Part shown: positions 18,709 through 48,044 of the stretch, one piece after another | Layout: every line of letters begins with the position of its first letter | Position numbering within the stretch: the stretch's first letter is position 1 | Origin: Candidatus Sulfurimonas baltica | Lineage (GTDB): Bacteria; Campylobacterota; Campylobacteria; Campylobacterales; Sulfurimonadaceae | Length of the DNA: 64,000 nt | Direction of reading: 5' to 3' | Assembly: GCF_015265455.1 (NCBI RefSeq) | Contig: NZ_CP054492.1 | Span: 1,612,001 to 1,676,000, forward strand | The notes under the pieces: generated by a model | What the model saw: only the letters and a program-made list of their open reading frames with translations | Told to the model about the DNA's origin: nothing | Database searches by the model: none | Program-made: the position numbers and the translations under genes

Positions 18709-19488
18709 CTATAAGCGATTTGTAATAAATCTAACTACTAAAAATACCAGCATACTAAAACCTATGATTACTGCTGCTAATGGTGCACTATAGCTGAGAC
18801 CATAACTGTTGAATCTGTCAAAAATAAGAACAGGTGTTGTCATAGGGTGGTAAACCAAAATAACTATTGCACCAAACTCGCCAAGACCCCTGCTCCACAT
18901 CATTAAAGCACCATTTATTATGTCTTTTTTTGCATTAGGTATCGTAACTCTAAAAAATACACTAATAGGAGAGGCCCCTAATGTTCTTGCTGTTTTTTCA
19001 AGTTTGACATCTACTTTTCTAAATCCGTCTTTTGCACTGTTTATTAAAAATGGAGCTGACAAAAACATCATAGCTATCATGATTCCGTACTCGGTTCCTA
19101 TAAACTCAATGCCAAAAAATTTAAAAAATTCACCTATTTGTGTGTCTCCAAAAGTTGTAAGAAGTGCGATACCTGCAGCAGTGTGAGGTATCATAACCGG
19201 AATATCAATAAGTGATTCAACTGCGCTTTTGCCATAAAAATCATATCTGGCTATTACATAAGCGAGTGGCAAACCTGTAAAAAGTACAAAAACCATTGCC
19301 CACGCAGATACTTTCATAGTAAGAATTATTGAATCTATTGCTTCACCATCTTTTATGGTCTCAAGCAGCTTTTCACTTCCCACACCAATAAATATTTTAA
19401 TGATAGGAATGCTTAGAAAAAACACTATAATCAGTGCTAAGACTATTAATGTTATGTTAAATAAATTGCTTTTGTTTATTGCTTTCAC
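18709..19488 (-). CDS. wtpB: Tungstate/molybdate ABC transporter permease
   Basis: 259 residues from the GTG at 19488, which has an AAGGAAG ribosome site; a longer reading to 19548 would run into a palindromic repeat and is unlikely. Several membrane helices and the permease loop DVKLEKTARTLGASPISVFF (EAA motif for coupling to the ATPase) are visible. It is the membrane subunit of the oxyanion importer encoded with the two genes upstream. Choice between tungstate and molybdate is not possible from the permease alone. Confidence 0.83.
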   Translation of the reverse strand: MKAINKSNLFNITLIVLALIIVFFLSIPIIKIFIGVGSEKLLETIKDGEAIDSIILTMKVSAWAMVFVLFTGLPLAYVIARYDFYGKSAVESLIDIPVMIPHTAAGIALLTTFGDTQIGEFFKFFGIEFIGTEYGIMIAMMFLSAPFLINSAKDGFRKVDVKLEKTARTLGASPISVFFRVTIPNAKKDIINGALMMWSRGLGEFGAIVILVYHPMTTPVLIFDRFNSYGLSYSAPLAAVIIGFSMLVFLVVRFITNRL

Positions 19489-19512
19489 TGTACTTCCTTT
19501 TTTTATAATCAA

Positions 19513-19617
19513 ACCCTCTGAATAATTAGCTATTAGACTCTGGATCAAGTCCAGAGTGACGGAGCTATCGTCATTCCAAGCTTGACTTGGAATCTAGTTT
19601 ATGAATTAATCAGAGGT
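19513..19617. repeat. Nested palindromic element between wtpC and wtpB
   Basis: About 105 bp. Outer inverted ends read CCTCTGAATAATTA and, reversed, CCTCTGATTAATTC. Inside are two small hairpins, CTCTGGA-TCAAG-TCCAGAG and ATTCCAAG-TCAAG-CTTGGAAT, separated by GTGACGG...CGTCA. The whole folds as one long imperfect palindrome. It resembles small palindromic or MITE-like intergenic repeats and splits the wtp operon. Confidence 0.6.
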
Positions 19618-19623
19618 CTCAAT

Positions 19624-20610
19624 CTATATAAAACTAATATCTTTTTTATCAAACCCTATTTGTATTGTCTTTGTTCTATCTGTATAACACCCTTCATAGT
19701 CTCTTTTTAAAATTTTTATAAAAAACTGATGTTGCTTAACTTTTACAAAAAGTTTGTAATGGTCAACTATCCCCATACATTCATCAACGACACCTTCAAA
19801 AACATAATCGGCTTGAATATCCCCATTTTTAGCTACTTTGATTACATTTGGATCTACAGAGTAAACCTTTGTAGAAGATTCATATCCAAGCATAATTGCC
19901 GGGAAAATATTTTTAAAACCTAAAAATTTTGCTACTTCTATGTTTGCAGGATGGTTCAAAACATCTTTTGCTGCTCCAACTTGCTTGATTTCACCATCCA
20001 TAATAATTGCGATTTTATCAGCCAGGTAAGAAGCTTCTCTAAAGTTATGTGTTACATGTATGGTAATAACGTTATATCTTCTATGGATATCCTTTAAACT
20101 CTTCATAATCGCATTTCTAAAAGTTGGGTCAATTGCACTTAATGGCTCATCCAAAAGTAAAATTTTAGGTCTTGAAAATATAGCTCTAGCTATTGCTACA
20201 CGTTGTTTTTCTCCACCACTTAAATCTTGAGTATCACGTTCAAGCAAAGTTTCTAATTTTAAAAATTCAACTATATCTTTAAACAGTTCATCTGCTTTTT
20301 CTATCTTTTTATATCTAGATGAGAACCTAATATTCTCTTGAACATTTAGATTTGGAAATAGTGCAAAGTCCTGATATACAAAACCGATATCTCTCTTTTC
20401 TGTTGCTACCAAAGAGATCTCTTTACCTTTATAAATTATATTTCCACTACATGTATTTAATCCGGCAATGGTCTCTAGTAACATTGTCTTTCCACTTCCA
20501 CTTTGACCAAGAAGAACAAAATATTCATTATTTTTTATATCTAGGTTTATGTCTTTAAGTGAAAAATTACCTGTGCTACATGATAAGTTTTGTATTTTTA
20601 AATTATCCAT
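19624..20610 (-). CDS. wtpC: Tungstate/molybdate ABC transporter ATP-binding protein
   Basis: 328 residues. Walker A LLGQSGSGKTMLLE (about 33-46), Q-loop VYQDFALFPN, signature LSGGEKQRVAIARA (about 131-144), Walker B ILLLDEPLSAID, and the switch His in VTHNF. The C-terminal ~100 residues form a TOBE/MOP-like extension as in ModC/WtpC. It follows the binding protein gene by 3 bp. Confidence 0.85.
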   Translation of the reverse strand: MDNLKIQNLSCSTGNFSLKDINLDIKNNEYFVLLGQSGSGKTMLLETIAGLNTCSGNIIYKGKEISLVATEKRDIGFVYQDFALFPNLNVQENIRFSSRYKKIEKADELFKDIVEFLKLETLLERDTQDLSGGEKQRVAIARAIFSRPKILLLDEPLSAIDPTFRNAIMKSLKDIHRRYNVITIHVTHNFREASYLADKIAIIMDGEIKQVGAAKDVLNHPANIEVAKFLGFKNIFPAIMLGYESSTKVYSVDPNVIKVAKNGDIQADYVFEGVVDECMGIVDHYKLFVKVKQHQFFIKILKRDYEGCYTDRTKTIQIGFDKKDISFI

Positions 20611-20613
20611 TTT

Positions 20614-21573
20614 TTACTTTCCTATTATGGAAGCATCTCCGGTAATAATTGCTGGAGAGATTACTCCCTGACCATTTTTAATCATAATCTCTTGACCTTG
20701 CTCTGAGAGTACAAAGTTTACAAACTTGATTGCACCTTCTTTGTTTGCTGGTGACTTTTTATTTTGCGCAACTGTAATACCGTAAATCATCGCTCCACCT
20801 TTTTTAATGATGAACTGACCCGGTTTTTTTCCACTTATATCAAACGAGGCAGTTTCATAGAACTCTTTAAACTCATTATCTTTTAAAGAGACTTGCTTTG
20901 GCAGAGTAATATAATTCAGTCCATGCTGCTGGGCAACTGACTTGTATATGTAAAGATAATCATAAGCATTAGCTTCGATTAGTCCTAGTAAATCTGTCTC
21001 TTTTGGTCTAACTATAACTTTGTTTCTATCTTCTTCACCAACTTCGTATGAATCACCATATCCAAACAATTTATCAAAAAAACCTGGAGTTTTATAATAC
21101 TTTTCTGCAAGCTTTGTTACTAAAATTGATCTATACCCACATGGGTCCATATTTGGATTTGAGTGTCCAACTTTAACACCCTCTCTTAAAAAGATTTCTG
21201 GCCAATTTTGTTCATTTATCTCATCTGCGTACTTTGCTTTTGAGGTATAAGCTATTGCCATCTCATTGGTTGCAAACTGTGCATTAAATTTTGCATGGTT
21301 TGGAATAAGCAAGTTATTTATTACATTGTAATCAGCACTAGCCATTACATCAGCAGCTTTACCGATTTCAGAGATTTTTCTAGCAGCTGCCTTACTTCCA
21401 CTAGCTTCTCTTTGTACATCATACTGTGGATATTTGGCTTCAAATGCTTTTTCTATTTCTGCAAATGGAACAGCTAAACTACCAGCATGCAATACAGTTA
21501 TTTTCTCTTTTGCGAACAAGCTAGATGCCAATAAAGCACTTAATACTGATGTTAGTAATATTTTTTTATTCAT
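20614..21573 (-). CDS. wtpA: Tungstate/molybdate-binding periplasmic protein
   Basis: 319 residues with a signal peptide (LLASSLFA, cut near residue 21). VLHAGSLAVPF near the mature N-terminus, REASGSKAAARKI, ADVMASADY and NPNMDPCGYRS are typical of WtpA/TupA-like oxyanion-binding proteins. It binds the metal oxyanion in the periplasm for import through WtpB/WtpC. The gene order here is A-C-B. The metal would feed the pterin cofactor of FdhA encoded upstream. Confidence 0.85.
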   Translation of the reverse strand: MNKKILLTSVLSALLASSLFAKEKITVLHAGSLAVPFAEIEKAFEAKYPQYDVQREASGSKAAARKISEIGKAADVMASADYNVINNLLIPNHAKFNAQFATNEMAIAYTSKAKYADEINEQNWPEIFLREGVKVGHSNPNMDPCGYRSILVTKLAEKYYKTPGFFDKLFGYGDSYEVGEEDRNKVIVRPKETDLLGLIEANAYDYLYIYKSVAQQHGLNYITLPKQVSLKDNEFKEFYETASFDISGKKPGQFIIKKGGAMIYGITVAQNKKSPANKEGAIKFVNFVLSEQGQEIMIKNGQGVISPAIITGDASIIGK

Positions 21574-21583
21574 CTCATTTTCC

Positions 21584-22813
21584 TTAATTAAATAAATCTG
21601 TTTTATCTTTTGTATATAGGCAATTAAATTTAATTACCTTTACACTCTCTTGTTCTGAGATTGAAGCTGTTGACTCATTTGTCACAAGAATACAATTGCT
21701 TACATGTAAGACTGTAATCATCCCTGAGCCATATTTATTATCTTGAGTTACTCTGTATTCTCCATTTTTATAAAAGCCAAGTACAACATTTACTCGACCA
21801 GCTTTTGTTTTAAAACTTTTGATGTTTTTTGCAATATCTATGTCATGAAAAACGCTCAAAGAGCCTTGCATCTTGTTTAAAACAGGAAGTGAGAACAAGT
21901 GCATGTTTACCATTGCAGTTAGTGGGTTTCCAGGTAAACACATAACAAAAGTTTTTTGCATTTTTCCCATCATAATAGGACGACCAGGTTTTATATTTAC
22001 ACCATGAAAAGCTATGTTTAAACCGTTACTCTCAAAAGCTTCGGCCATAAAGTCTGCATCTCCCATTGAGATACCGCCTGTAGTGATGATGACGTCATAG
22101 CTTTCAAGACCCTTCACAAATGATATAGACTTCTCCAAAGAGTCAGGCACAACACCAGTGTAAGTTGCATCAAAACCTTTCTCTTTTAAAAGTGAAATGA
22201 TCGCATAAGAGTTACAGTTGTATATCTCACTCTCACCTGCTCTCTCCCATGGCTCTTTTAACTCGTTTCCAGTAGATACAACAGCAATGTTTAGCTTTTT
22301 GTATAAACAGAGCATTGTGATACCTTGAGAGGCCAATATTGCGACCATAGCCGATGTAACAACTTCACCTTTGCTAAACAATGCATCTTCTAAAGCTTTT
22401 TCTTCACCTTTAAATCTTAAACATGAATTTTTCACAACATTTTGTTTAATTGTAACCTCATCATTTTTGTACTCTAAAACATCTTCTATTGGGATGATAG
22501 TATCTGCATCATCTGGTACTTTTGCACCTGTCATGATTTTATAACACTCATTTTCATTTAAACATTCAGCAGAGTCTTCACCAGCTAAAATTGTTTTTAC
22601 AACTTTAAGTCTTTTACCTGCATCTGTTGCTTTTATGGCAAAACCATCCATGGCAGAGTTATTAAAAGATGGTAGATTCTTTATACAGGAAATATCTTGT
22701 GCCAAAACTCTTCCAAGAGAGTCTTGTATATGAACTATTTCCTCTATACCGGTAATCTCTGCTATTTCTAGTGACAAAGAAACAGCATCTTTAAAATCTA
22801 AATACTTATACAT
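21584..22813 (-). CDS. moeA: Molybdopterin molybdenumtransferase
   Basis: Inserts the metal into molybdopterin-AMP. 409 residues with NNSAMDGFA (about 49-57), MTGAKVPDDADTI, VSTGNEL, TTGGISMGD and CLPGNPLTAMV, all conserved in MoeA. It overlaps the desulfurase gene by 8 bp and is followed by wtpA after 10 bp, so metal uptake and insertion are co-expressed. Confidence 0.93.
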   Translation of the reverse strand: MYKYLDFKDAVSLSLEIAEITGIEEIVHIQDSLGRVLAQDISCIKNLPSFNNSAMDGFAIKATDAGKRLKVVKTILAGEDSAECLNENECYKIMTGAKVPDDADTIIPIEDVLEYKNDEVTIKQNVVKNSCLRFKGEEKALEDALFSKGEVVTSAMVAILASQGITMLCLYKKLNIAVVSTGNELKEPWERAGESEIYNCNSYAIISLLKEKGFDATYTGVVPDSLEKSISFVKGLESYDVIITTGGISMGDADFMAEAFESNGLNIAFHGVNIKPGRPIMMGKMQKTFVMCLPGNPLTAMVNMHLFSLPVLNKMQGSLSVFHDIDIAKNIKSFKTKAGRVNVVLGFYKNGEYRVTQDNKYGSGMITVLHVSNCILVTNESTASISEQESVKVIKFNCLYTKDKTDLFN

Positions 22814-23786
22814 GTAAAGCCTTTATTTGTCTGTAAGATTTACCTATTTTTGAAGCTACATGTAGAATCTCTTCGCTGTTTAAATTTTTGCAAAAAGACA
22901 AAGATAGAGCTTGTCTGCTTTGTAATTCCGTATAACCCATTGCTTGAATAATTCTAGAAGGACGAGAGAGACCTAAAGAGCACCCTTCCCCATTTGTTAC
23001 AAATATACTTGAGAGACTTAAGTTTCTGATTACTTCTCTCGCTTTAATCCCTTTAAGTCCAAAATGAACAACATTATTTAGTGTTAAGTCTGAATCGACA
23101 AAGAAGATAATGTCACCTTTTAAACTCTCTTTTAAAACATTGATAAACTCTTCTTTACATGTAACTGCTTCCTTGCCTTTGTTTATGGCATCTGCGATAA
23201 GCTTTAGTCCTACAGTATCAATACTCGCTAAATTTTGTTCTTTAAATAGATTGTTGTGAAGCAATATTGAGTGAGTGAAATAACCACTAAGTTTGTATAC
23301 ATCAAAATAAGCCACGTCACAATGAGTAGCATCTAGTGTTGCTGATATATTAGAGATAACAGTTCCACTAAAAACTTCTTTGATCTTTTGTAAATCAACC
23401 TTTACAAAAGTATCGATTATGTATGGTGAGACAAACAGATACTCCTCTTTTATGGAGCTAATCGCCTTGTAGTCAATTGTTCCATCAGGCATAAGGTTTA
23501 TATACGTAACACTAAAACCTAATGACTCATAAAGCTGGGCTGCTTGAACGACTGCTTCGCTCTCACCAAGGTTTACGGCAATGTCTGACTTTAATTCCAG
23601 CATTAAACCTAAAAAACCTTCTTTTGAAAAAGAGAAACTGTGTAAAGATGAAAAGTTAAATCTTGATGTTAAATCTTTACTCATCTCTTCAAATTCTACA
23701 TTAGTACTCAAAGGTTCAATACTCAGCGTTTTTGATACTGACAAATCATTTGCCTCAGGATAATTCAAACAGTTTAATTTATACAT
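22806..23786 (-). CDS. Divergent cysteine desulfurase-like aminotransferase
   Basis: 326 residues from the ATG at 23786, chosen because AAGGGGAG lies just before it. The fold-type I PLP lysine is seen in FDVYKLSGY, aligned with the SxHKxxGP site of NifS/IscS. GEGCSLGLSRPS aligns with the catalytic-Cys loop (GSACTS) of IscS. Overall identity looks low and the protein is about 60 residues shorter than IscS. Position between a ModE-like regulator and moeA, with fdhD nearby, suggests a sulfur donor for FdhD-dependent sulfuration of the formate dehydrogenase cofactor. Loss of activity cannot be excluded. Confidence 0.65.
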   Translation of the reverse strand: MYKLNCLNYPEANDLSVSKTLSIEPLSTNVEFEEMSKDLTSRFNFSSLHSFSFSKEGFLGLMLELKSDIAVNLGESEAVVQAAQLYESLGFSVTYINLMPDGTIDYKAISSIKEEYLFVSPYIIDTFVKVDLQKIKEVFSGTVISNISATLDATHCDVAYFDVYKLSGYFTHSILLHNNLFKEQNLASIDTVGLKLIADAINKGKEAVTCKEEFINVLKESLKGDIIFFVDSDLTLNNVVHFGLKGIKAREVIRNLSLSSIFVTNGEGCSLGLSRPSRIIQAMGYTELQSRQALSLSFCKNLNSEEILHVASKIGKSYRQIKALHV

Positions 23787-24153
23787 CTTGACTCCCCTTT
23801 GTACAATTAATAATCTCTCCATCTGCCATAAAAATCTCTTCAAATCTTTTAGTTGAAAAATCTCTAACTTCTTTTTCTAAGAGTTTATACTTGAGTATAA
23901 GTTCTTTTGCTTTGGGTGTTAGTGCTGTTCCGCCGGAATCTCTTCCTTTTTTAACCACCACTAAATCATCTTCAATATACTCTTGAAGTATCTTTATGTG
24001 AGACCAAGCTTTTTTATAGTTCATCCCAACTCTCTTGGAAGCTTCTGAGATAGAACCTGTTTCATCGATTAGTTCTAAGATTTGAGTTTTACCACCACCA
24101 AAGACTAGATGCTCATTGTCATCTTCTATCCAGGTCTTAACTTTTACTACCAT
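23779..24153 (-). CDS. ModE-like winged-helix regulator without molybdate domains
   Basis: 124 residues from the ATG at 24153, which follows AAGGA. The N-terminal winged helix has GGGKTQILELIDETGSISEAS and YKKAWSHIKILQ (shown in parts), matching the LysR-like ModE N-terminal domain; LTPKAKELI follows. It has no MOP/Di-MOP metal-binding domain, so it is a DNA-binding-only form. Its 5' end overlaps the duplicated-repeat gene by 17 bp and its 3' end overlaps the desulfurase gene by 8 bp. A role in regulating this operon is likely; see the twin palindrome before fdhD. Confidence 0.75.
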   Translation of the reverse strand: MVVKVKTWIEDDNEHLVFGGGKTQILELIDETGSISEASKRVGMNYKKAWSHIKILQEYIEDDLVVVKKGRDSGGTALTPKAKELILKYKLLEKEVRDFSTKRFEEIFMADGEIINCTKGSQDV

Positions 24154-24523
24154 GATGAATCCTTGTTCTAAAACATCCAAGTTGACAATATATAACTTCA
24201 ATGTCACTTTTTTTAGTAGTAGAACCAACTCTATTCAAAGAAAATTCTTTAGCTACCTCCCAGGCAGCACTACACTCTAGTTTTTTTTCACTGTTAGCTT
24301 TTGAAGATAGTTTTTCATATATATCATCTATTGCATCGCCAAAATCTTTACTGCCAAAAACGCCAAGTTCGCAGTTGTCAATTCTGATACCATGTTTTTT
24401 AGTAATCTCAGCTATCTCTTTTGGTTCTACATGTAGCTCTCTAGCCAATTTAAAAGCATCTAAACAATTAATCTTTCCATCATCATTTAGATATTGCTTT
24501 AAAATTTGCTCTATGTTATCCAT
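24137..24523 (-). CDS. Two-repeat protein of the fdh accessory operon
   Basis: 128 residues from the ATG at 24523, preceded by GGAAGAG; an ATG 4 codons earlier is less well placed. The sequence is an internal duplication. Residues about 14-58 contain INCLDAFKLARELHVE then CELGVFG; residues about 79-118 contain LECSAAWEVAKEFSL then CQLGCF. Each half has one Cys near its start and CxLGxF at its end. I do not know the family. It lies between fdhD and the ModE-like gene with overlaps on both sides, so a role in formate dehydrogenase assembly or regulation is inferred from position. Confidence 0.65.
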   Translation of the reverse strand: MDNIEQILKQYLNDDGKINCLDAFKLARELHVEPKEIAEITKKHGIRIDNCELGVFGSKDFGDAIDDIYEKLSSKANSEKKLECSAAWEVAKEFSLNRVGSTTKKSDIEVIYCQLGCFRTRIHHGSKS

Positions 24524-25304
24524 GAACTCTTCCACTATGTGTATATATGTTCATTTTTCTTCCTCTAGCAAAGCCTATAAGGGTTATTCCGTGTTTATTG
24601 GCTGTTTGTACTCCAAGGTATGTCGGAGCAGTTCTAGATACCACTATGGGAATTCTATGCATAACTGCTTTTACAACCATTTCAGAACTTAGTCTTCCAC
24701 TAACAAATAAAACTGATTTTGTTGTGTCAAGTCCATCTATTTTGCATTTACCAACAACTTTATCTATTGCGTTGTGTCTACCTATGTCTTCGGCAGTAAC
24801 AGTACTTTTATCTTCTAAAAACAGCGTTGCTTTATGAACACAACCTGTCAGTGTATACAGTTCGCTATCAGCGTAGAATTTTTTAACTTCATCGCTAATA
24901 GTCTCTGGGCTAATCACAAAACTAGTTTGATTAAATGGAATTTCCAGACTTCCGGCAACATTACCGGTAATTCCTCCACCACAACCGCTTACTAGTGTTT
25001 TTTCTTTATATAGGTTTTGTAGTGAGTCTGTATCAACTGCTGCTTTGATATCTACTCTTAAACCATCTTCACTTACTTCTATAGACTCCACATCACTTAC
25101 GTGAGTGATTACATTTTCACTCATCAAAAAGCCAATTGCATGTGCCTTTTGATCTTTAGGTATACACATCATAGATATGATTTTTTCACCATTTAGGTAA
25201 ACATTTAGTCTTGCTTCTTCAATAGTTACATCTTCTACTTCTGTTATCTCATCACCGTTTACTCTGTCAATGATGATAGTTTTTAAATATTTACTATTTG
25301 GCAT
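24516..25304 (-). CDS. fdhD: Formate dehydrogenase accessory sulfurtransferase
   Basis: 262 residues. FdhD moves sulfur from a cysteine desulfurase to the pterin cofactor before it enters FdhA. The region VSGCGGGITG (about residues 105-114) is the reactive loop; only the first Cys of the E. coli CxxC motif is present, the second is Gly. EDIGRHNAIDKVVG, FVSGRLSSEMVVK and SRTAPT are typical of FdhD. It heads its own transcription unit behind a terminator-like hairpin and a twin palindrome. Confidence 0.92.
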   Translation of the reverse strand: MPNSKYLKTIIIDRVNGDEITEVEDVTIEEARLNVYLNGEKIISMMCIPKDQKAHAIGFLMSENVITHVSDVESIEVSEDGLRVDIKAAVDTDSLQNLYKEKTLVSGCGGGITGNVAGSLEIPFNQTSFVISPETISDEVKKFYADSELYTLTGCVHKATLFLEDKSTVTAEDIGRHNAIDKVVGKCKIDGLDTTKSVLFVSGRLSSEMVVKAVMHRIPIVVSRTAPTYLGVQTANKHGITLIGFARGRKMNIYTHSGRVHG

Positions 25305-25320
25305 TTTATCCCCTCTTAAC

Positions 25321-25369
25321 TATGCAAATTTTGCATATTTTAAATTATTAATATGCTAGTTTTGCATAT
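25321..25369. promoter_or_regulatory. Twin TATGC-N7-GCATA operator upstream of fdhD
   Basis: Two inverted repeats in tandem: TATGCAAATTTTGCATA at 25321-25337 and ATATGCTAGTTTTGCATAT at 25351-25369. Both have TATGC-N7-GCATA, and their centres are 31 bp apart, about three helix turns. They lie 17-65 bp ahead of the fdhD start. A dimeric regulator is expected; the ModE-like protein of this operon is the nearest candidate. Confidence 0.6.
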
Positions 25370-26950: not shown

Positions 26951-29782
26951 TTACGCGTATTCTATGCGGCATAATCCGCCTTTAGTTTCAGGGATTTGAG
27001 TAACAATGTCATAACCGTAATTAGTAACAGTATTAGCACTCTCGCCCACAGCATAAGGTTTTGTACCTTTTGGATATTTATGAGATAAATCCTCACCTTG
27101 GAAATGACCAGCAAAATGGAACGGCATAAAGATTCTGTCTTCAGTAACTGCATGTGAGTACTTAGCCTTAACTTTAATTTTCGTACCTTCTGGTGAATGA
27201 ATCCACATCATTGAACCATCTCTAATTCCATACTTACCTGCTAAATCAGGGTTAATACTACAAAACATCTCTGGAGACAAGGCAGCTAAATACTTAGAAG
27301 CTCTATTTTCCATACCTGCACCGTTCATATTTACAAGTCTTCCCGTAACTAAGTTAATTGGGAACTCTTTTGACCAGTCTTTCTCCGTCTGCTTCGAAAT
27401 ATATTTAGTATCAACTCTAAAGTGATCTGTTTTATCCGCAAAAGAAGGATATGCCTTTGCTAAATCTTGTCTTGGAGAGTGTAAAGGCTCTCTGTGTATT
27501 GGAATTTCGTCTGCAAATCCCCATACTTTAGTTCTAGCTCTTGCATTTCCAAAAGGAGCTATACCTTTTTGCATACATTTTTGGGCAATAATATTAGAAG
27601 TATCAACTTTCCAGTTTTTACCAATTTTACTTTTTTCATCAGCTGTTAGAGTAATTCCAAGAACTTTTTCTATATTCTCAGCTGTTATCTCAGGGTAACC
27701 GTCTTTATTTGCAGAGTCTTTTGGAGCACTTCCTGCAGCTGCAAGTAAATCTTGACCATCATGTTCTAAGCCAAATCTATTTCTAAATCCCATACCACCA
27801 TCTACAACACTTCTGTTTATGTTATATAATAATGGACTTCCACCATGTGTCTCAGTCCATGCTGGCCAAGGTAAACCATAATATTCACCCTTCATTTTGC
27901 CATATCCACGTCCAGAGATTTGATCAAACATATGCCAGTTTTCAGTTTGCCTTTTGATTCTCGCAGCCGTCCAACCAGTCAAACCAATGGTTTTAATGAT
28001 TCTTGCAATTTCATCAGTAGCATCTTCAGGCCATGTAAAATCTTTTTTATTCTCTTTAATCTTCATACCGGCTGTATACTCGTCATAAAAACCGAGTCTT
28101 TTTGCCAGTTCAAACATAATGTCATGGTCAGTTTTTGACTCATACATAGGTTCTACAACTTTTGATCTCCACTGAACTGATCTATTAGTTGCAGTTACAG
28201 TTCCAGATGTTTCAAACTGAGTTGCAGCTGGTAAAATAAACACATTATCCTGCTTGTCAGTTAAAATTGCTGCTTCATTAACAAAAGGGTCACAAAGAAC
28301 AATCATGTCTAAGTTGTCTAATCCTTCTTTTACTTTAGCTTGTTGAGCAATTGATGTAATACCATTACCCATTACAAAAAGATTTTTAAGATTAGTACCG
28401 GCATTATGTATCTTATCGTTGCCATCTTTACCATCTAGCACACCAGCCCACCAACGAGCAAGAGTAAATCCTTTTTTACCCATCCATTCTTTAGACTTAA
28501 ATCTTCCAGTTAACCAATCGTAGTCAACACCCCAGGATTTTGCAAAGTACTTCCATGAACCTTCAGCTAGGCCATAGTACCCTGGTAACGTGTCAGATAA
28601 ACATGCCATATCTGTAGCACCTTGAACATTGTCGTGACCTCTAAGAATATTAGTTCCACCACCTTCAACACCCATGTTTCCAAGAGCTAGTTGTAAAATA
28701 GGAGCAAGTCTAGTATTAGAACTTCCGTTTGAATGCTGAGTTAAACCCATAGCCCAAATCAATGTACCAGGATTAGATCTAGCATATAATGTTGTAACTT
28801 GAATAAGTTGAGCAGCAGGCACACCTGTTACATCTTCAACTTTTTTCGGATTCCACTTTTTAGCTTCTTCCATAATGTCTTGCATACCATAAACTCTGTC
28901 TTTGATAAACTTTTCATCATGCCAGCCATTTTTGAAGATTAGATGCAGCATTCCATACATAAATGGGATATCTGTACCAGGTCTTATACGGCAATAATGG
29001 TCTGCTTTTGCAGCAGTTTTAGTAAATACTGGATCTATTACAATAATTTTTGCGTTGTTTCTTTCCTTGGCCTTTAAAAAATGTTGAAATCCAACTGGGT
29101 GATTTACCGCAGGATTCGCTCCAAAAATTATAATTGCCTTTGAATTTTGTATATCTCCAAGTGAATTGGTCATAGCGCCATAACCCCATGTATTCGCCAC
29201 ACCGGCGACTGTTGCACTATGTCAAATTCTAGCTTGGTGATCTATATTATTCGTTCCATACATTGCGGCAAATTTTCTAAAATAATATGCCTGTTCAGTA
29301 CTCATTTTTGCAGATCCTAAAAACATTGCTGAGTCTGGTCCTGCTGTTTTATGAGAATCTCTTAATTTAGTTGCGATTCTGTCTAGTGCATCGTCCCAAC
29401 TTAATCTTTTCCATATTCCAGCTTCTTTTACCATTGGATGCTTAAGTCTAATCTCAGACCTAACCATATCAATCATATCAGCGCCTTTACAGCAATGTCC
29501 ACCTAAAGAAATAGGATGGTCTTGCGCGACCTCTTGTCTTACCCAAACGCCGTTTTGTACTTCTGCGATAATACCACATCCAACCGAACATGCAGTACAG
29601 ATAGTTTTAACATTTTTAGAGCCAGGAAAAGGATTTTTTACTTCCTCTTGTGTAGCAGCTCTTGTTACACCATCATTAGCAAATGCACTAGTAACACCAG
29701 TAGCCGTAGCGACAGCTGCCATTTTCATAAATGACCTTCTACCGATTTGAGCTTTAAGTGTTTCATATGTGTCAACTAACAT
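26951..29782 (-). CDS. fdhA: Formate dehydrogenase catalytic subunit, selenocysteine-containing
   Basis: 943 residues when the UGA at 29222-29224 is read as selenocysteine (residue 187). The frame is continuous on both sides: NNIDHQARI before and HSATVAGV after, exactly the active-site context of Sec formate dehydrogenases. The N-terminus has a Tat signal (GRRSFMK then a hydrophobic stretch), and the 4Fe-4S site CTACSVGC...CCKGAD follows at about residues 61-100. The rest is the molybdopterin oxidoreductase fold. It oxidises formate to CO2 in the periplasm. A hairpin with a GGTGT loop lies just after the UGA. An AGGAGAG ribosome site precedes the ATG. Full selABD and tRNA-Sec are in the same window. 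Confidence 0.95.
29194..29208 (-). promoter_or_regulatory. SECIS-type hairpin in fdhA
   Basis: On the minus strand TCGCC-GGTGT-GGCGA starts about 14 nt after the UGA codon. A 5-bp stem with a GGU-containing apical loop at this distance is what bacterial SelB recognises. The lower stem was not folded. Confidence 0.65.
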
Positions 29783-37870: not shown

Positions 37871-38905
37871 ATGAATAACGAATCTAAATTAACTAAATTC
37901 GTTCAAGCAGCTGGTTGAGCAGCGAAGATGGGTCCGGGAGATCTAAAACATACAATTCGCTCACTTATTCCAGATAATGAAAATGTGCTTGTAGGATTTG
38001 AAAATAGCGAGGACGCTTCTGTTTTTAAGATAAATGAAAATGAAGCATTAGTCCAAACTGTTGATTTTATTACACCTGTTGTTGATGACCCTTTCGTGTA
38101 TGGGAAAATTGCAGCAGCAAACTCTTTATCAGATATATTTGCAATGGGAGCAGAGGTAAAAACGGCTCTAAACATTGTAGGCTTTGATAAAACTAACCAT
38201 GGCTATGAAGTTCTTAGCGAAATACTTAGAGGCGGAAATGAAAAGATAAAAGAGTGTGGTGGTGTTTTAATCGGCGGTCATACTATTGAGTCACCTGAAA
38301 TGTACTATGGACTTAGTGTTACGGGGATGATACACCCTAGTAAAATTCTAAGAAACAATACTCCTAAAATAGGACACGTTTTAGTATTAACTAAACCTAT
38401 TGGTATGGGTATCTTAACAACTGCGATAAAGAGAGACTTGCTTAAAATTGAGACTACTCTTGAGGCAGTGAAGGTTATGGAAACTCTCAGCTACTTGCCA
38501 TCAAAACTTCTTAGTGAGTATGATGTGAGTGCTTGTACAGATATCACTGGTTTTGGTCTGCTCGGTCATGCTTTTGAGTCTACAAATGATGCTGTGAGCC
38601 TTAGTATAGATGCTAAAAGTGTCCCTGTTATGGCAGATGCATTTGATTTAGCAGATAGAGATGTAGTTCCGGGTGGAACAAAGAGAAATATGAAGTATTT
38701 AGAAGATAAGGTTACATTTGTGGGAGATGCTATAAAGTATAAACTAATGTTTTGTGATGCACAAACATCAGGAGGACTTTTAATATCTATGAATGAAAAA
38801 GATGCTTTAGAGTATGTAAAAAGAGTTGAAGATTTGACTTATGGTTACGCGTGCATAATTGGTTCTATAATCCCAAGGGGAGATAGACCGATAATCGTGT
38901 ACTAA
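37871..38905 (+). CDS. selD: Selenophosphate synthase with in-frame UGA (selenocysteine)
   Basis: 344 residues when the UGA at 37916-37918 is read as Sec (residue 16). The frame runs KFVQAAG-Sec-AAKMGPGDL, the SelD active-site loop where Cys or Sec precedes the AAK lysine. Without readthrough no good start exists before VLVGFENSEDA. QTVDFITPVVDDP and GGHTIESPEMYYG follow as usual in SelD. It makes selenophosphate from selenide and ATP, so its own translation depends on its product. The first gene of the rightward sel group. Confidence 0.93.
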
Positions 38906-38908
38906 GTT

Positions 38909-39007
38909 TGGTGAGAAGGCGAAGGAATCGAACCCCCCGAGGCGTTTACACAAAAACCTCCAATCAGGTTTGAAACCTGTGGTGCCCACCAGGGTCACAT
39001 GCCCCCC
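38909..39007 (-). tRNA. selC: tRNA-Sec (TCA)
   Basis: 99 nt including the encoded CCA. On the minus strand it begins GGGGGGCATG, has a D-arm with TGGT loop, an anticodon arm CAGG-TTTCAAA-CCTG with anticodon TCA, a long variable arm (GAGG...CCTC with inner TTT/AAA pairs), a TTCGATT T-loop and ends CTCACCA. Length, UCA anticodon and long extra arm identify selenocysteine tRNA. It lies antisense in the selD-selA gap, 3 bp after the selD stop. Confidence 0.92.
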
Positions 39008-39068
39008 AAATCTTGTACAACTGAAGTTTACTATATATAATATAAAAACTATCTAAAAAAGGGTAAAA

Positions 39069-40418
39069 ATGTTTTTACTAAAATCTATTCCGAAAGTAGA
39101 CAAGTTCATAGAAAATGATAAATTTAATGATTTAGCCTTGTCTCTTGTAGTTAGTATTACTCAAGAAGTTCTTCAAGACTTAAGAGAAAATATTTTAAAA
39201 AACAAGGTAGAGTCTTTCACTGAAGATGAGTTAGTTCAAACAGTTTTACAAAAGTATGATGAGCTTACTAAACCATCTTTGCAAAAGTTAATCAATGCAA
39301 CAGGAGTAATAGTACATACAAACTTAGGACGAAGCCTAATAGATGCAAAAACATTTGACAAAGTAAAAGAGATAGTTACCAGTTACAACAATTTAGAATA
39401 CGATTTAGTTAAAGGAAAAAGGGGGGAGAGATACTCCCATATCTCAGACGTAATATGCAGACTTCTTGGCTGTGAAGATGTTCTCATAGTTAACAACAAT
39501 GCAAGTGCCGTATTTTTAATCCTCAATACCTTTGTAAAGAAAAAAGAGGTTATAGTCAGTCGTGGCGAACTTGTAGAGATAGGTGGAAGTTTTAGAATAC
39601 CTGATGTCATGAAACATAGTGGGGCAAAACTTGTTGAAGTCGGAGCTACAAACAAAACACATCTATATGACTATGAAGATGCCATAACTGAGAATACATC
39701 AATGCTTATGAAAGTACATAAATCTAACTACTCTATAGAAGGGTTTAGCTCTGAGGTGGGATTTAAAGAGTTGGTTAAGCTTGCAAAAGAGAAAAATCTT
39801 ATAGACTATTACGACATGGGAAGCGGTCATCTAGTTGATCTTCCTTATGGACTAGATCAATATGAACCCTCAGTACTGAAGTGTATGCAAGAAAATCCAT
39901 CACTTCTTAGTTTCTCAGGTGATAAGCTTTTAGGAAGTGTACAAGCAGGAATTATAGTAGGGAAAAAAGAGCACATAGCTAAACTCAAAAAGAATCAACT
40001 TCTTAGAATGCTAAGAGTAGATAAACTTACCCTTGCACTGTTAGAAGAGAATATAACGTCAGTTTTACTTAACAAAATAGATGATATTCCTACCCTTAAG
40101 ATGTTGTTTACTTCTATAGAAGAGTTGAGAGAAAATGCTCTTTACATGCAAGAGAAGATAAAAGATATTAGCGAGTCTGAAATAATAGAGACTAAAACTG
40201 TCATAGGTGGCGGTACTACTCCAAACAGAACAATTCCAAGCATAGCACTGAGCATAAAAATAAAAAACTATAAACAAAACAAAATGGAAAAATTATTTAG
40301 AGAGAAAAAAATAATAGGTCGAATACAAGATGACAAGTTTTTACTTGATTTTAGAGCTATACAAAAAAGTGAGATAGCACAAATAATAAACATCGTAAAA
40401 GAGATAGCAGATGTCTAA
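39069..40418 (+). CDS. selA: L-seryl-tRNA(Sec) selenium transferase
   Basis: Converts Ser-tRNA-Sec to Sec-tRNA-Sec using selenophosphate and PLP. 449 residues. INATGVIVHTNLGRSLI near residues 75-91, EIGGSFRIP, YDMGSGHL and SGDKLLGSVQAGII (PLP lysine near 285) are all SelA signatures. An AAGGGT site precedes the ATG. It overlaps selB by 8 bp. Confidence 0.95.
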   Translation: MFLLKSIPKVDKFIENDKFNDLALSLVVSITQEVLQDLRENILKNKVESFTEDELVQTVLQKYDELTKPSLQKLINATGVIVHTNLGRSLIDAKTFDKVKEIVTSYNNLEYDLVKGKRGERYSHISDVICRLLGCEDVLIVNNNASAVFLILNTFVKKKEVIVSRGELVEIGGSFRIPDVMKHSGAKLVEVGATNKTHLYDYEDAITENTSMLMKVHKSNYSIEGFSSEVGFKELVKLAKEKNLIDYYDMGSGHLVDLPYGLDQYEPSVLKCMQENPSLLSFSGDKLLGSVQAGIIVGKKEHIAKLKKNQLLRMLRVDKLTLALLEENITSVLLNKIDDIPTLKMLFTSIEELRENALYMQEKIKDISESEIIETKTVIGGGTTPNRTIPSIALSIKIKNYKQNKMEKLFREKKIIGRIQDDKFLLDFRAIQKSEIAQIINIVKEIADV

Positions 40419-42246
40419 CTTCATTATAGGTACATGTGGACATATTGACCACGGTAAAACAGCACTTATAAAAGCACTTAACGGTTTTGAGGGTGACACT
40501 ACAAAAGAAGAAAAAGAGCGCGGAATAACTATAGATCTTAGTTTTTCCAATATTGCCAAAGATGATAAAAATATAGCTTTTATAGATGTTCCAGGACATG
40601 AAAAACTTGTAAAAAACATGATAGCAGGAGCATTTTCTTTTGACTGCGTACTTATAGTTGTGAGTGCGGTTGAGGGAATAAAACCACAGACCGTAGAGCA
40701 TCTTGAGATTTTAAATCTGCTTGGTGTAAAAAATGCTGTCCTAGTTGTTACAAAAAAAGACTTGATAAATGAGTCAGAGTTAGACAAAAAGCTTATTGAG
40801 GCTGAAGAGTTTATAACAAAATATGATTTTGATTTGAAATTTAGTATGGGAGTCTCTATCTACGATGAGGCTTGTATTGAAAACCTCAAAGAAAAACTTT
40901 TTAGTCTAAATGCAAGTACAAAAATACAAGAGAATTTTTTCAGATACTATGTAGACAGAGTCTTTAGTGCTAAAGGTGCAGGAACTATTGTAACTGGAAC
41001 TGTACTTGGAAAACCTATAGCAGTTAATGAACAAATTTTTATCAGTGACATACAAAAAGAATCCAAAATAAAAAACCTGCAAGTCCACGGCGTAGATGCG
41101 CCAATGGCTAATATCTCAAACCGTACAGCTATAAACTTAAGCAATGTAGATGCTAAAAATATAAAACGTGGTTTTGTCATAAGCAAAAAAGGATATCTCA
41201 GGGGTTTTAGCTCAATTGACATCTCATTTACTGCACTCAAAGATAAGCTTTTGCATCACAACAGACACTACTCTGTCTACATAGGCTCAAGAAAAATAGA
41301 TGCAAAGGTACTGCTTTTTAATTCAGAAGATTCTTTGAGTAATGGATTTGCTTCTATTAATAGCAAAGAGGATATCTTTAGCATTTATGACGAGAAGTTA
41401 ATTATAAGAGATGGAAATTTCACTGTGGCCGGAGGAGTGGTCTTAAACCCGGTAAGCGACCCTATGAAGAAGAGTCAGAAACTGCATCTGCTCGAAGCAC
41501 TCAAAGATAAAAATATCCCTAAAGCCTACTTAATACTTCTAAATGCACATAAAAAAGGTTTGGGGCTAATCTCATCAGCACAAAGGTTCGCACTCTCACA
41601 TCAAGAGGCACTGATAAATGCTAAAGAGCTTCAAAACTGCTTTGTAGACGAAAAAGAACTTATCATTTACCCAATCTCTACGAAAGAGATAATTTACAAT
41701 AATATTAAAAGCATATACACTAAAAATAGCTATGCACTTCTTTCAAACACCTCTATCAAGCTCAGACTAAAGTGGGCTAGTGAAGGTTTTATACAGCTGG
41801 TATTAAATGAACTTGTAGAAGAAGATTTTTTAATAAAAGATGGGAACCTCTACAAGAATGCAAATATCAAAGAAGACTTTAGAAGCTCTCTTGAGCAAAT
41901 AATGTTAAAACGTTTAGAAGAGGAAAATATATCTCCAACTGCTCCGTATAATATATATGACAATTTAGATATAGACAGAAAAATGGGTGATGAGATTTTA
42001 AAATCTCTCTGTTCTAAAAAGCAGGTAATAAGACTTCAGCATAATCTTTTCATCCACTCTTCTTGTTTAAGCGGGCTTGTTAATGATATGAAAAACATCA
42101 TCAAAAAAGACGGATATATAAACATACAAAACTTTAAAGAGAAACATCCATTAAGTAGAAAATACTTGATTACTTATCTCGATTATCTAGATAATTTTTC
42201 AGAGATTAAAAAGCAGGAGAATAAAAGAGTTTTTAAGGGAATTTAA
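40411..42246 (+). CDS. selB: Selenocysteine-specific elongation factor
   Basis: 611 residues. G-domain motifs: GTCGHIDHGKTALIKAL (about 7-23), GITIDL, DVPGHEKLVKNM and TKKD. EF-Tu-like domains follow, and the C-terminal ~250 residues form the winged-helix array that binds the SECIS hairpin. Delivers Sec-tRNA-Sec at UGA codons of fdhA and selD. Translationally coupled to selA by an 8-bp overlap. Confidence 0.95.
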   Translation: MSNFIIGTCGHIDHGKTALIKALNGFEGDTTKEEKERGITIDLSFSNIAKDDKNIAFIDVPGHEKLVKNMIAGAFSFDCVLIVVSAVEGIKPQTVEHLEILNLLGVKNAVLVVTKKDLINESELDKKLIEAEEFITKYDFDLKFSMGVSIYDEACIENLKEKLFSLNASTKIQENFFRYYVDRVFSAKGAGTIVTGTVLGKPIAVNEQIFISDIQKESKIKNLQVHGVDAPMANISNRTAINLSNVDAKNIKRGFVISKKGYLRGFSSIDISFTALKDKLLHHNRHYSVYIGSRKIDAKVLLFNSEDSLSNGFASINSKEDIFSIYDEKLIIRDGNFTVAGGVVLNPVSDPMKKSQKLHLLEALKDKNIPKAYLILLNAHKKGLGLISSAQRFALSHQEALINAKELQNCFVDEKELIIYPISTKEIIYNNIKSIYTKNSYALLSNTSIKLRLKWASEGFIQLVLNELVEEDFLIKDGNLYKNANIKEDFRSSLEQIMLKRLEEENISPTAPYNIYDNLDIDRKMGDEILKSLCSKKQVIRLQHNLFIHSSCLSGLVNDMKNIIKKDGYINIQNFKEKHPLSRKYLITYLDYLDNFSEIKKQENKRVFKGI

Positions 42247-46952: not shown

Positions 46953-48044
46953 ATGGGAACAAGAAAAGATTATATTAAAACAAAATACACAGGTATATAT
47001 GTCAAAGAAGATTCAAAAACAAAAATAAAAACATATTTAGCGCGTGCAAAAGTCAACGGAACTGAAATAGAACAGATTGTAGGCTATTCTAATGATAGGT
47101 ATAAAACTAATCCATCTTTAGCATTTAATCGACGTGTAGAGCTTATAAACACACATAAAGCAGGTAAATCAACTAAAAGAGCTGACAATCCTACGCTTGA
47201 TACTTTTTTTAATGAATTTCAAGATATGAGAAAAGAGACTATTTCTCAGAATAGGTGGAAAAGTGCATTTTATTTTTATAGTAAATATGTGTCCGATTCT
47301 CTTAAAAAGAAACATATGAACTATGTCGATAGTGATGACCTTCAAAAAATAATTAATCATATGATAAATGAAGGTAAAAAAGGAAGTTATATTGTAACTG
47401 TAAAAGAAATATTTTCTCCGTTATTTAAAAAAGCGATTGAATTTGGTTTAGTAGAAAAAAATATAACTGATTATTTAAAATTTCCAAAATATGACAATAT
47501 CAAATATTTTTCATTGCCAGAAGATAAAATTAAAGAACTAATAAATGCAATTATGAATATTCCGGATAATCATTATAAAGTTCTGTTTATGTTTCTTTTA
47601 CGAGGTCGTAGAAGTAATGAAATACGAACTCTTTGTTTTGAAGATATTGATTTTGAAAATAAATTATATACTGTACGAGATGAAAATAATAAAACACGTA
47701 AAAATCTAACTTACATGTTAGATGCTGAGCTGATAGAACATCTTGAAATTATTAGAGAGAAAAAAGGCTTAATATTCAAATCACCTGTTACTGGCGAAAA
47801 ATTAACAGCAATTCCAAAAAAAATGTGGGCTAGAATTCAAAAAGAAGTAGGAATTAAAATGCGAATACACGATTTTAGACATTTGCTTGGCTTTACCCTT
47901 GTAAACAATAATGTACCTCTTGAGAGTATTTCAAGAGCGTTAGGACACTCTAAAATCACAACTACGCAAAGATATAGCAATCAAAAAGAATTAATGGCTA
48001 AAGATGCTGTTGATGTGTTTTTAGGGATAGTTAATAAAAAGTAA
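46953..48044 (+). CDS. Tyrosine-type site-specific integrase
   Basis: 363 residues. N-terminal AP2-like/arm-binding region (about 10-60), SAM-like core-binding domain (about 65-170), catalytic domain with Arg in LLRGRRSNEIRTL (about 222-234), HDFRH (about 307-311), GHS (about 331-333) and Tyr in TTTQRYSN (about 342). All catalytic residues appear present, so it may be active. Its place at attL next to a tRNA-derived repeat fits integration at that tRNA. Confidence 0.9.
   Translation: MGTRKDYIKTKYTGIYVKEDSKTKIKTYLARAKVNGTEIEQIVGYSNDRYKTNPSLAFNRRVELINTHKAGKSTKRADNPTLDTFFNEFQDMRKETISQNRWKSAFYFYSKYVSDSLKKKHMNYVDSDDLQKIINHMINEGKKGSYIVTVKEIFSPLFKKAIEFGLVEKNITDYLKFPKYDNIKYFSLPEDKIKELINAIMNIPDNHYKVLFMFLLRGRRSNEIRTLCFEDIDFENKLYTVRDENNKTRKNLTYMLDAELIEHLEIIREKKGLIFKSPVTGEKLTAIPKKMWARIQKEVGIKMRIHDFRHLLGFTLVNNNVPLESISRALGHSKITTTQRYSNQKELMAKDAVDVFLGIVNKK

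Follow-up and report, generated by a model that had tools for sequence, protein, structure and literature searches.

In Campylobacter jejuni, the regulator ModE acts as a repressor of molybdenum and tungsten transport and was reported to lack a metal-binding domain; its gene lies in the order fdhD-Cj1507c-tlp1, with the chemoreceptor gene tlp1 downstream, and a protein-binding site in this ModE had been suggested by earlier authors cited in the same study (PMC7011364). Deletion of modE in C. jejuni abolished formate dehydrogenase (FDH) activity, which was restored by complementation, and a role of ModE in FDH biogenesis beyond repression was inferred (PMC11237541). The protein thus presents a puzzle, being reported without a metal-binding domain yet controlling uptake of both metals and being needed for FDH activity. 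No description of a tandem repeat in C. jejuni ModE was found in the literature searched.

Here, we analyzed a 64,000-nucleotide stretch of the 2.74-Mb genome of Candidatus Sulfurimonas baltica (NZ_CP054492.1, positions 1,612,001 to 1,676,000), referred to in full as the window. Its FDH locus carries the genes fdhABC, fdhD, a repeat gene, a ModE-like helix-turn-helix (HTH) gene, a NifS-like gene, moeA, wtpA, wtpC, and wtpB in that order, with the following features from fdhD onward:

24516-25304, minus strand: fdhD, formate dehydrogenase accessory sulfurtransferase, the upstream operon partner (NF001943, 308.7 bits)
24137-24523, minus strand: two-repeat, four-cysteine protein of 128 amino acids (ATG at 24523, stop at 24137-24139)
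23779-24153, minus strand: ModE-type winged helix plus long helix, 124 amino acids, without TOBE/Mop, equivalent to the C-terminal half of fused homologues (TIGR00637 and Pfam HTH_1)
22806-23786, minus strand: divergent NifS/cysteine desulfurase-like protein, downstream, found elsewhere with or without the repeat gene (NCBIfam search, genome survey)
21584-22813, minus strand: moeA, molybdenum/tungsten insertase (NCBIfam search)
18709-21573, minus strand: wtpA-wtpC-wtpB, tungstate/molybdate ABC transporter genes (WtpA above its cut-off; WtpC and WtpB best matches but below theirs)

The repeat gene shares 8 nt (24516-24523) with fdhD and 17 nt with the ModE-like gene, which starts with an ATG at 24153, matching the two overlaps claimed in the initial annotation. 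FdhA is broken into two open reading frames (29222-29782 and 26951-29200; gap 29201-29221), a break that an in-frame UGA codon for selenocysteine would be expected to produce, and the genes selD, selA, and selB come next, at 37928-42246. A phage-type integrase/recombinase-like reading frame (46953-48044, plus strand), located downstream of this sel/FDH region, possibly marks an island edge. The NifS-like protein (22806-23786, minus strand) seems to retain catalytic positions, namely the lysine of KLSG and the cysteine of NGEGCSLG. At E below 1e-70, its gene was detected in 20 of 298 genomes, all belonging to family f1 or f9, whether or not the repeat gene was present; its product may be a sulfur donor dedicated to FdhD. 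A sulfur relay tying the repeat protein to this neighbor was weakened, as the NifS-like gene lies at fdhD without the repeat in L140, L142, and L143.

The 128-residue protein is built of two units:

24344-24517, minus strand: repeat unit 1, residues 3-60, with Cys20, Cys51, and a CELGVFG end (alignment, comparison of the halves, AlphaFold2 model with helices and a short strand)
24161-24322, minus strand: repeat unit 2, residues 68-121, with Cys84, Cys113 (and Cys117), and a CQLGCF end (alignment, comparison of the halves, AlphaFold2 model)

Local alignment of the two halves scored 78, compared to 22 ± 4 in 5,000 shuffles, all of which fell short of it, and comparison of the half-profiles by hhalign gave a probability of 97.8 (E 6.8e-12); together these results rule out a chance origin of the repeat. 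The duplication proposed initially therefore holds, but the unit, put at about 40 residues, spans about 55 with a C...CxLGxF core of about 37. Conservation was assessed across 41 diverse homologues that are 26 to 93% identical to the window protein (alignment A3). Tandem CxLGxF units and four cysteines were present, with C20, C51, C84, C113, G54, F56, G57, L115, and G116 invariant; C117 was near-invariant among the first ten homologues. The cysteines to which the initial annotation had attached its proposal of metal, sulfur, or selenium binding are thus retained down to 26% identity.

Profile searches of Pfam and NCBIfam with the repeat protein returned no family above cut-off, PHROGs and PDB sequences gave no credible match, and scans of plasmid and viral sequences yielded no relative; weak, below-cut-off matches to EF-hand, DUF2202, and homeodomain look like chance. 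Within these collections, the protein retains its initial status as an unrecognized family. AlphaFold2 predicted two similar helical units, each of three helices and a short strand (mean pLDDT 86.8, pTM 0.74). Foldseek of this model against the PDB found nothing at E≤0.001, and the best VIA-align match (Z 5.4 over about 50 residues) was to common three-helix arrangements of the HTH/L11/NuoE-N kind.

Homologues supplied the context of the tandem. In most of them, it forms the N-terminal half of a 236- to 270-amino-acid protein with a ModE-type winged helix at the C terminus, an arrangement found in families f6, f10, f11, f16, and f20. The model of a fused homologue matched E. coli ModE (1b9m, E 4.2e-6) and 2ijl, and its ModE match in a sequence-profile search fell in the C-terminal half. 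In the window, the winged-helix DNA-binding domain is encoded by the partner gene (TIGR00637, 71.9 bits, E 3.6e-20, short of the curated cut-off of 98.5), and the repeat protein is not itself the ModE HTH; a profile search found no other ModE HTH in this genome. A TOBE/Mop domain pair was sought in the fused homologues and was absent; the TOBE domain was detected in two full-length control ModE proteins of the same phylum (L132 and L135). These sequence comparisons show homology between the window protein and the N-terminal half of the Mop-less ModE-type regulator of the Campylobacterota. The initial picture of an isolated FDH accessory protein kept its tie to the FDH locus but gave way to that of half a regulator, fused in most relatives.

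The fusion is equated with C. jejuni ModE (Cj1507c) by synteny, as the gene order agrees with fdhD-Cj1507c-tlp1: L066 and its relatives L157 and L158 carry fdhD, the fusion, genes for a 700-amino-acid and a 188- to 190-amino-acid protein, and SelD. As judged from profile searches, the four-cysteine tandem is an undescribed module of a known regulator type.

The window, its close relatives, and most of family f9 carry the tandem and the winged helix on separate genes. In most split relatives, the start codon of the second gene and a purine-rich Shine-Dalgarno (SD)-like site lie inside the 3' end of the first, as in the window:

24160-24164, minus strand: SD-like AAGGA of the ModE-like gene, within the 3' end of the repeat gene (read from the sequence; most split relatives have a comparable purine-rich site)

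Programmed frameshifting was rejected, as inspection of the junctions by eye revealed no standard slippery heptamer. The internal start with its SD-like site favors coupled initiation instead, and the halves in the window are probably translationally coupled genes.

The distribution of the repeat was surveyed in 298 sampled genomes, all Campylobacterota. Homologues were found in 112 of them, with a cognate HTH in all but five (a count read from long tables). The repeat was carried by 109 of the 195 genomes with FDH and by 3 of the 103 without it, an association inflated by relatedness among genomes, whose counts are not independent. Many genomes with selenocysteine-containing FDH (Sec-FDH), however, lack the repeat (e.g., L140, L142, and L143), which rules out a strict requirement, and several FDH-less Campylobacter carry it; the label of FDH accessory survives in that looser form. 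Around fdhD, all four combinations were seen: both halves, repeat only, HTH only (the Wolinella-like G213, L148), and neither (many Sec-FDH genomes, among them G297, G153, and G282). The repeat stands without a cognate HTH in G169, G249, and G333, each of which encodes a longer ModE-type protein elsewhere, two with TOBE; it adjoins fdhD in G169 and G333 and a NifS-like gene in G249, where the contig ends.

Loss of FDH was followed in the genus containing G150 (49 genomes), where the cognate HTH is kept in seven FDH-less genomes. FDH-less Campylobacter often, though not always, lost the tandem or its cysteine motifs. The tandem is gone with the HTH conserved in G193, G302, and G323, and G340 (L161 4665-5378, minus strand) keeps the fused scaffold with three of four cysteines and both CxLGxF motifs lost. 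FDH-less G132, G343, and G346 retain the tandem intact, which rules out its strict loss with FDH, and FDH-positive G342 has the HTH and lost the tandem. Domain loss was associated with FDH status (Fisher p 0.0098, with few independent events). Given this mixture of loss and retention, we conclude that the tie of the repeat to FDH is real, not absolute. Family f9 also has second, stand-alone copies of the repeat that are not located near FDH genes (L079 5833-6237, L080 5781-6185, L082, L093, and L095); several lie near genes for HAD-like and large membrane proteins, three have lost cysteines, and they look like decaying duplicates.

Upstream of fdhD, a motif search identified two operator-like sites:

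25351-25369, no strand: operator-like palindrome ATATGC-N7-GCATAT, upstream of fdhD
25320-25338, no strand: another palindrome of this kind with one mismatch, likewise upstream of fdhD

The exact palindrome occurs once in the genome, at 25351-25369. With up to one mismatch allowed, 14 of 36 loci had it in the roughly 120 nt preceding fdhD, compared to 0.015 expected, and 3 of 11 loci had it within the same distance upstream of wtpA. None was found upstream of six other tested genes, and the reversed control pattern had 0 matches in 20 genomes. The palindrome was absent from three loci that have the repeat without the HTH. G130, which is without a cognate HTH, also carries the palindrome, so the site may be shared with canonical ModE and serve as a general ModE operator.

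Taken together, we somewhat favor the reading that the window protein is a detached ModE half, predicted to act both as an input module and as a contributor to FDH biogenesis. As Mop-less ModE proteins are without the TOBE/Mop molybdate-binding domains, the tandem is probably the missing input module acting in their place. Its cysteines would bind a thiophilic species (Mo/W, S, or Se) involved in cofactor supply to FDH or in its assembly, and the tandem would signal to the HTH half, the pair tuning the fdhD-moeA-wtp operon via the ATATGC-N7-GCATAT sites. Direct participation of the tandem in FDH biogenesis would also explain the FDH-null phenotype of the C. jejuni modE mutant, and the tandem is the obvious candidate for the ModE role beyond repression. 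Against this reading stand the FDH-less genomes with an intact tandem (G132, G343, and G346), the HTH without the tandem in G342 and G213, the tandem without a cognate HTH in G169, G249, and G333, the many Sec-FDH genomes with neither half, and the palindrome in G130. A more specific, tentative version is that of a bifunctional regulator-maturase, in which the tandem would handle a Mo/W, S, or Se intermediate in FDH assembly and report its status to the HTH half; a single protein would then serve both the maturation of the enzyme and the transcription of metal-uptake genes. The natural split of the tandem in the window and family f9 makes the two ModE roles separable genetically and biochemically.

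Primary function as an FDH maturation factor, a carrier of sulfur, selenium, or metal or a chaperone beside FdhD that is linked to the HTH for level control only, is in our estimation unlikely. The repeat genes without an HTH beside fdhD (G169 and G333) or a NifS-like gene (G249, at the contig end) are consistent with it, as are the missing FDH activity of modE-null C. jejuni (PMC11237541) and the tendency of the domain or its cysteine motifs to go when FDH is lost. Sec-FDH genomes without the repeat (G297, G153, and G282) and FDH-less genomes that keep it with all cysteines (G343 and G346) argue against this role, as does the occurrence of the NifS-like gene independently of the repeat. A smaller chance still is given to a module for protein-protein contact or oligomerization, or an added HTH-like three-helix DNA contact, with structural cysteines, no sensing, and the signal supplied by a partner: the predicted units do resemble, at low Z, small helical bundles of common HTH/L11/NuoE-N arrangements, FDH-less G340 keeps the scaffold after losing most cysteines, and a protein-binding site was proposed earlier for C. 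jejuni ModE (cited in PMC7011364), but the four cysteines and CxLGxF are invariant at 26 to 50% overall identity, which suggests chemistry at the cysteines.

Compared with known systems, the favored reading, a detached input half of ModE, places the locus among several ModE architectures. E. coli ModE (1b9m, 1o7l) shares the winged helix and long helix of the window's partner half; it carries C-terminal TOBE/Mop molybdate-binding domains, whereas the Mop-less Campylobacterota type has an N-terminal cysteine tandem instead. Short HTH-only ModE proteins (Agrobacterium 2ijl and Burkholderia pBVIE02) correspond to the DNA-binding half alone. On the Burkholderia vietnamiensis plasmid pBVIE02 (L062), the short ModE-family HTH gene and the genes for tungstate/molybdate transport point away from each other, and no protein of TOBE length is encoded at the HTH gene; the neighboring transport genes resemble those of the window, but no annotated repeat partner gene lies beside it. 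In C. jejuni ModE of the Cj1507c type, the tandem and the winged helix likewise follow fdhD in that order, joined in one polypeptide, whereas the window encodes them in two overlapping genes.
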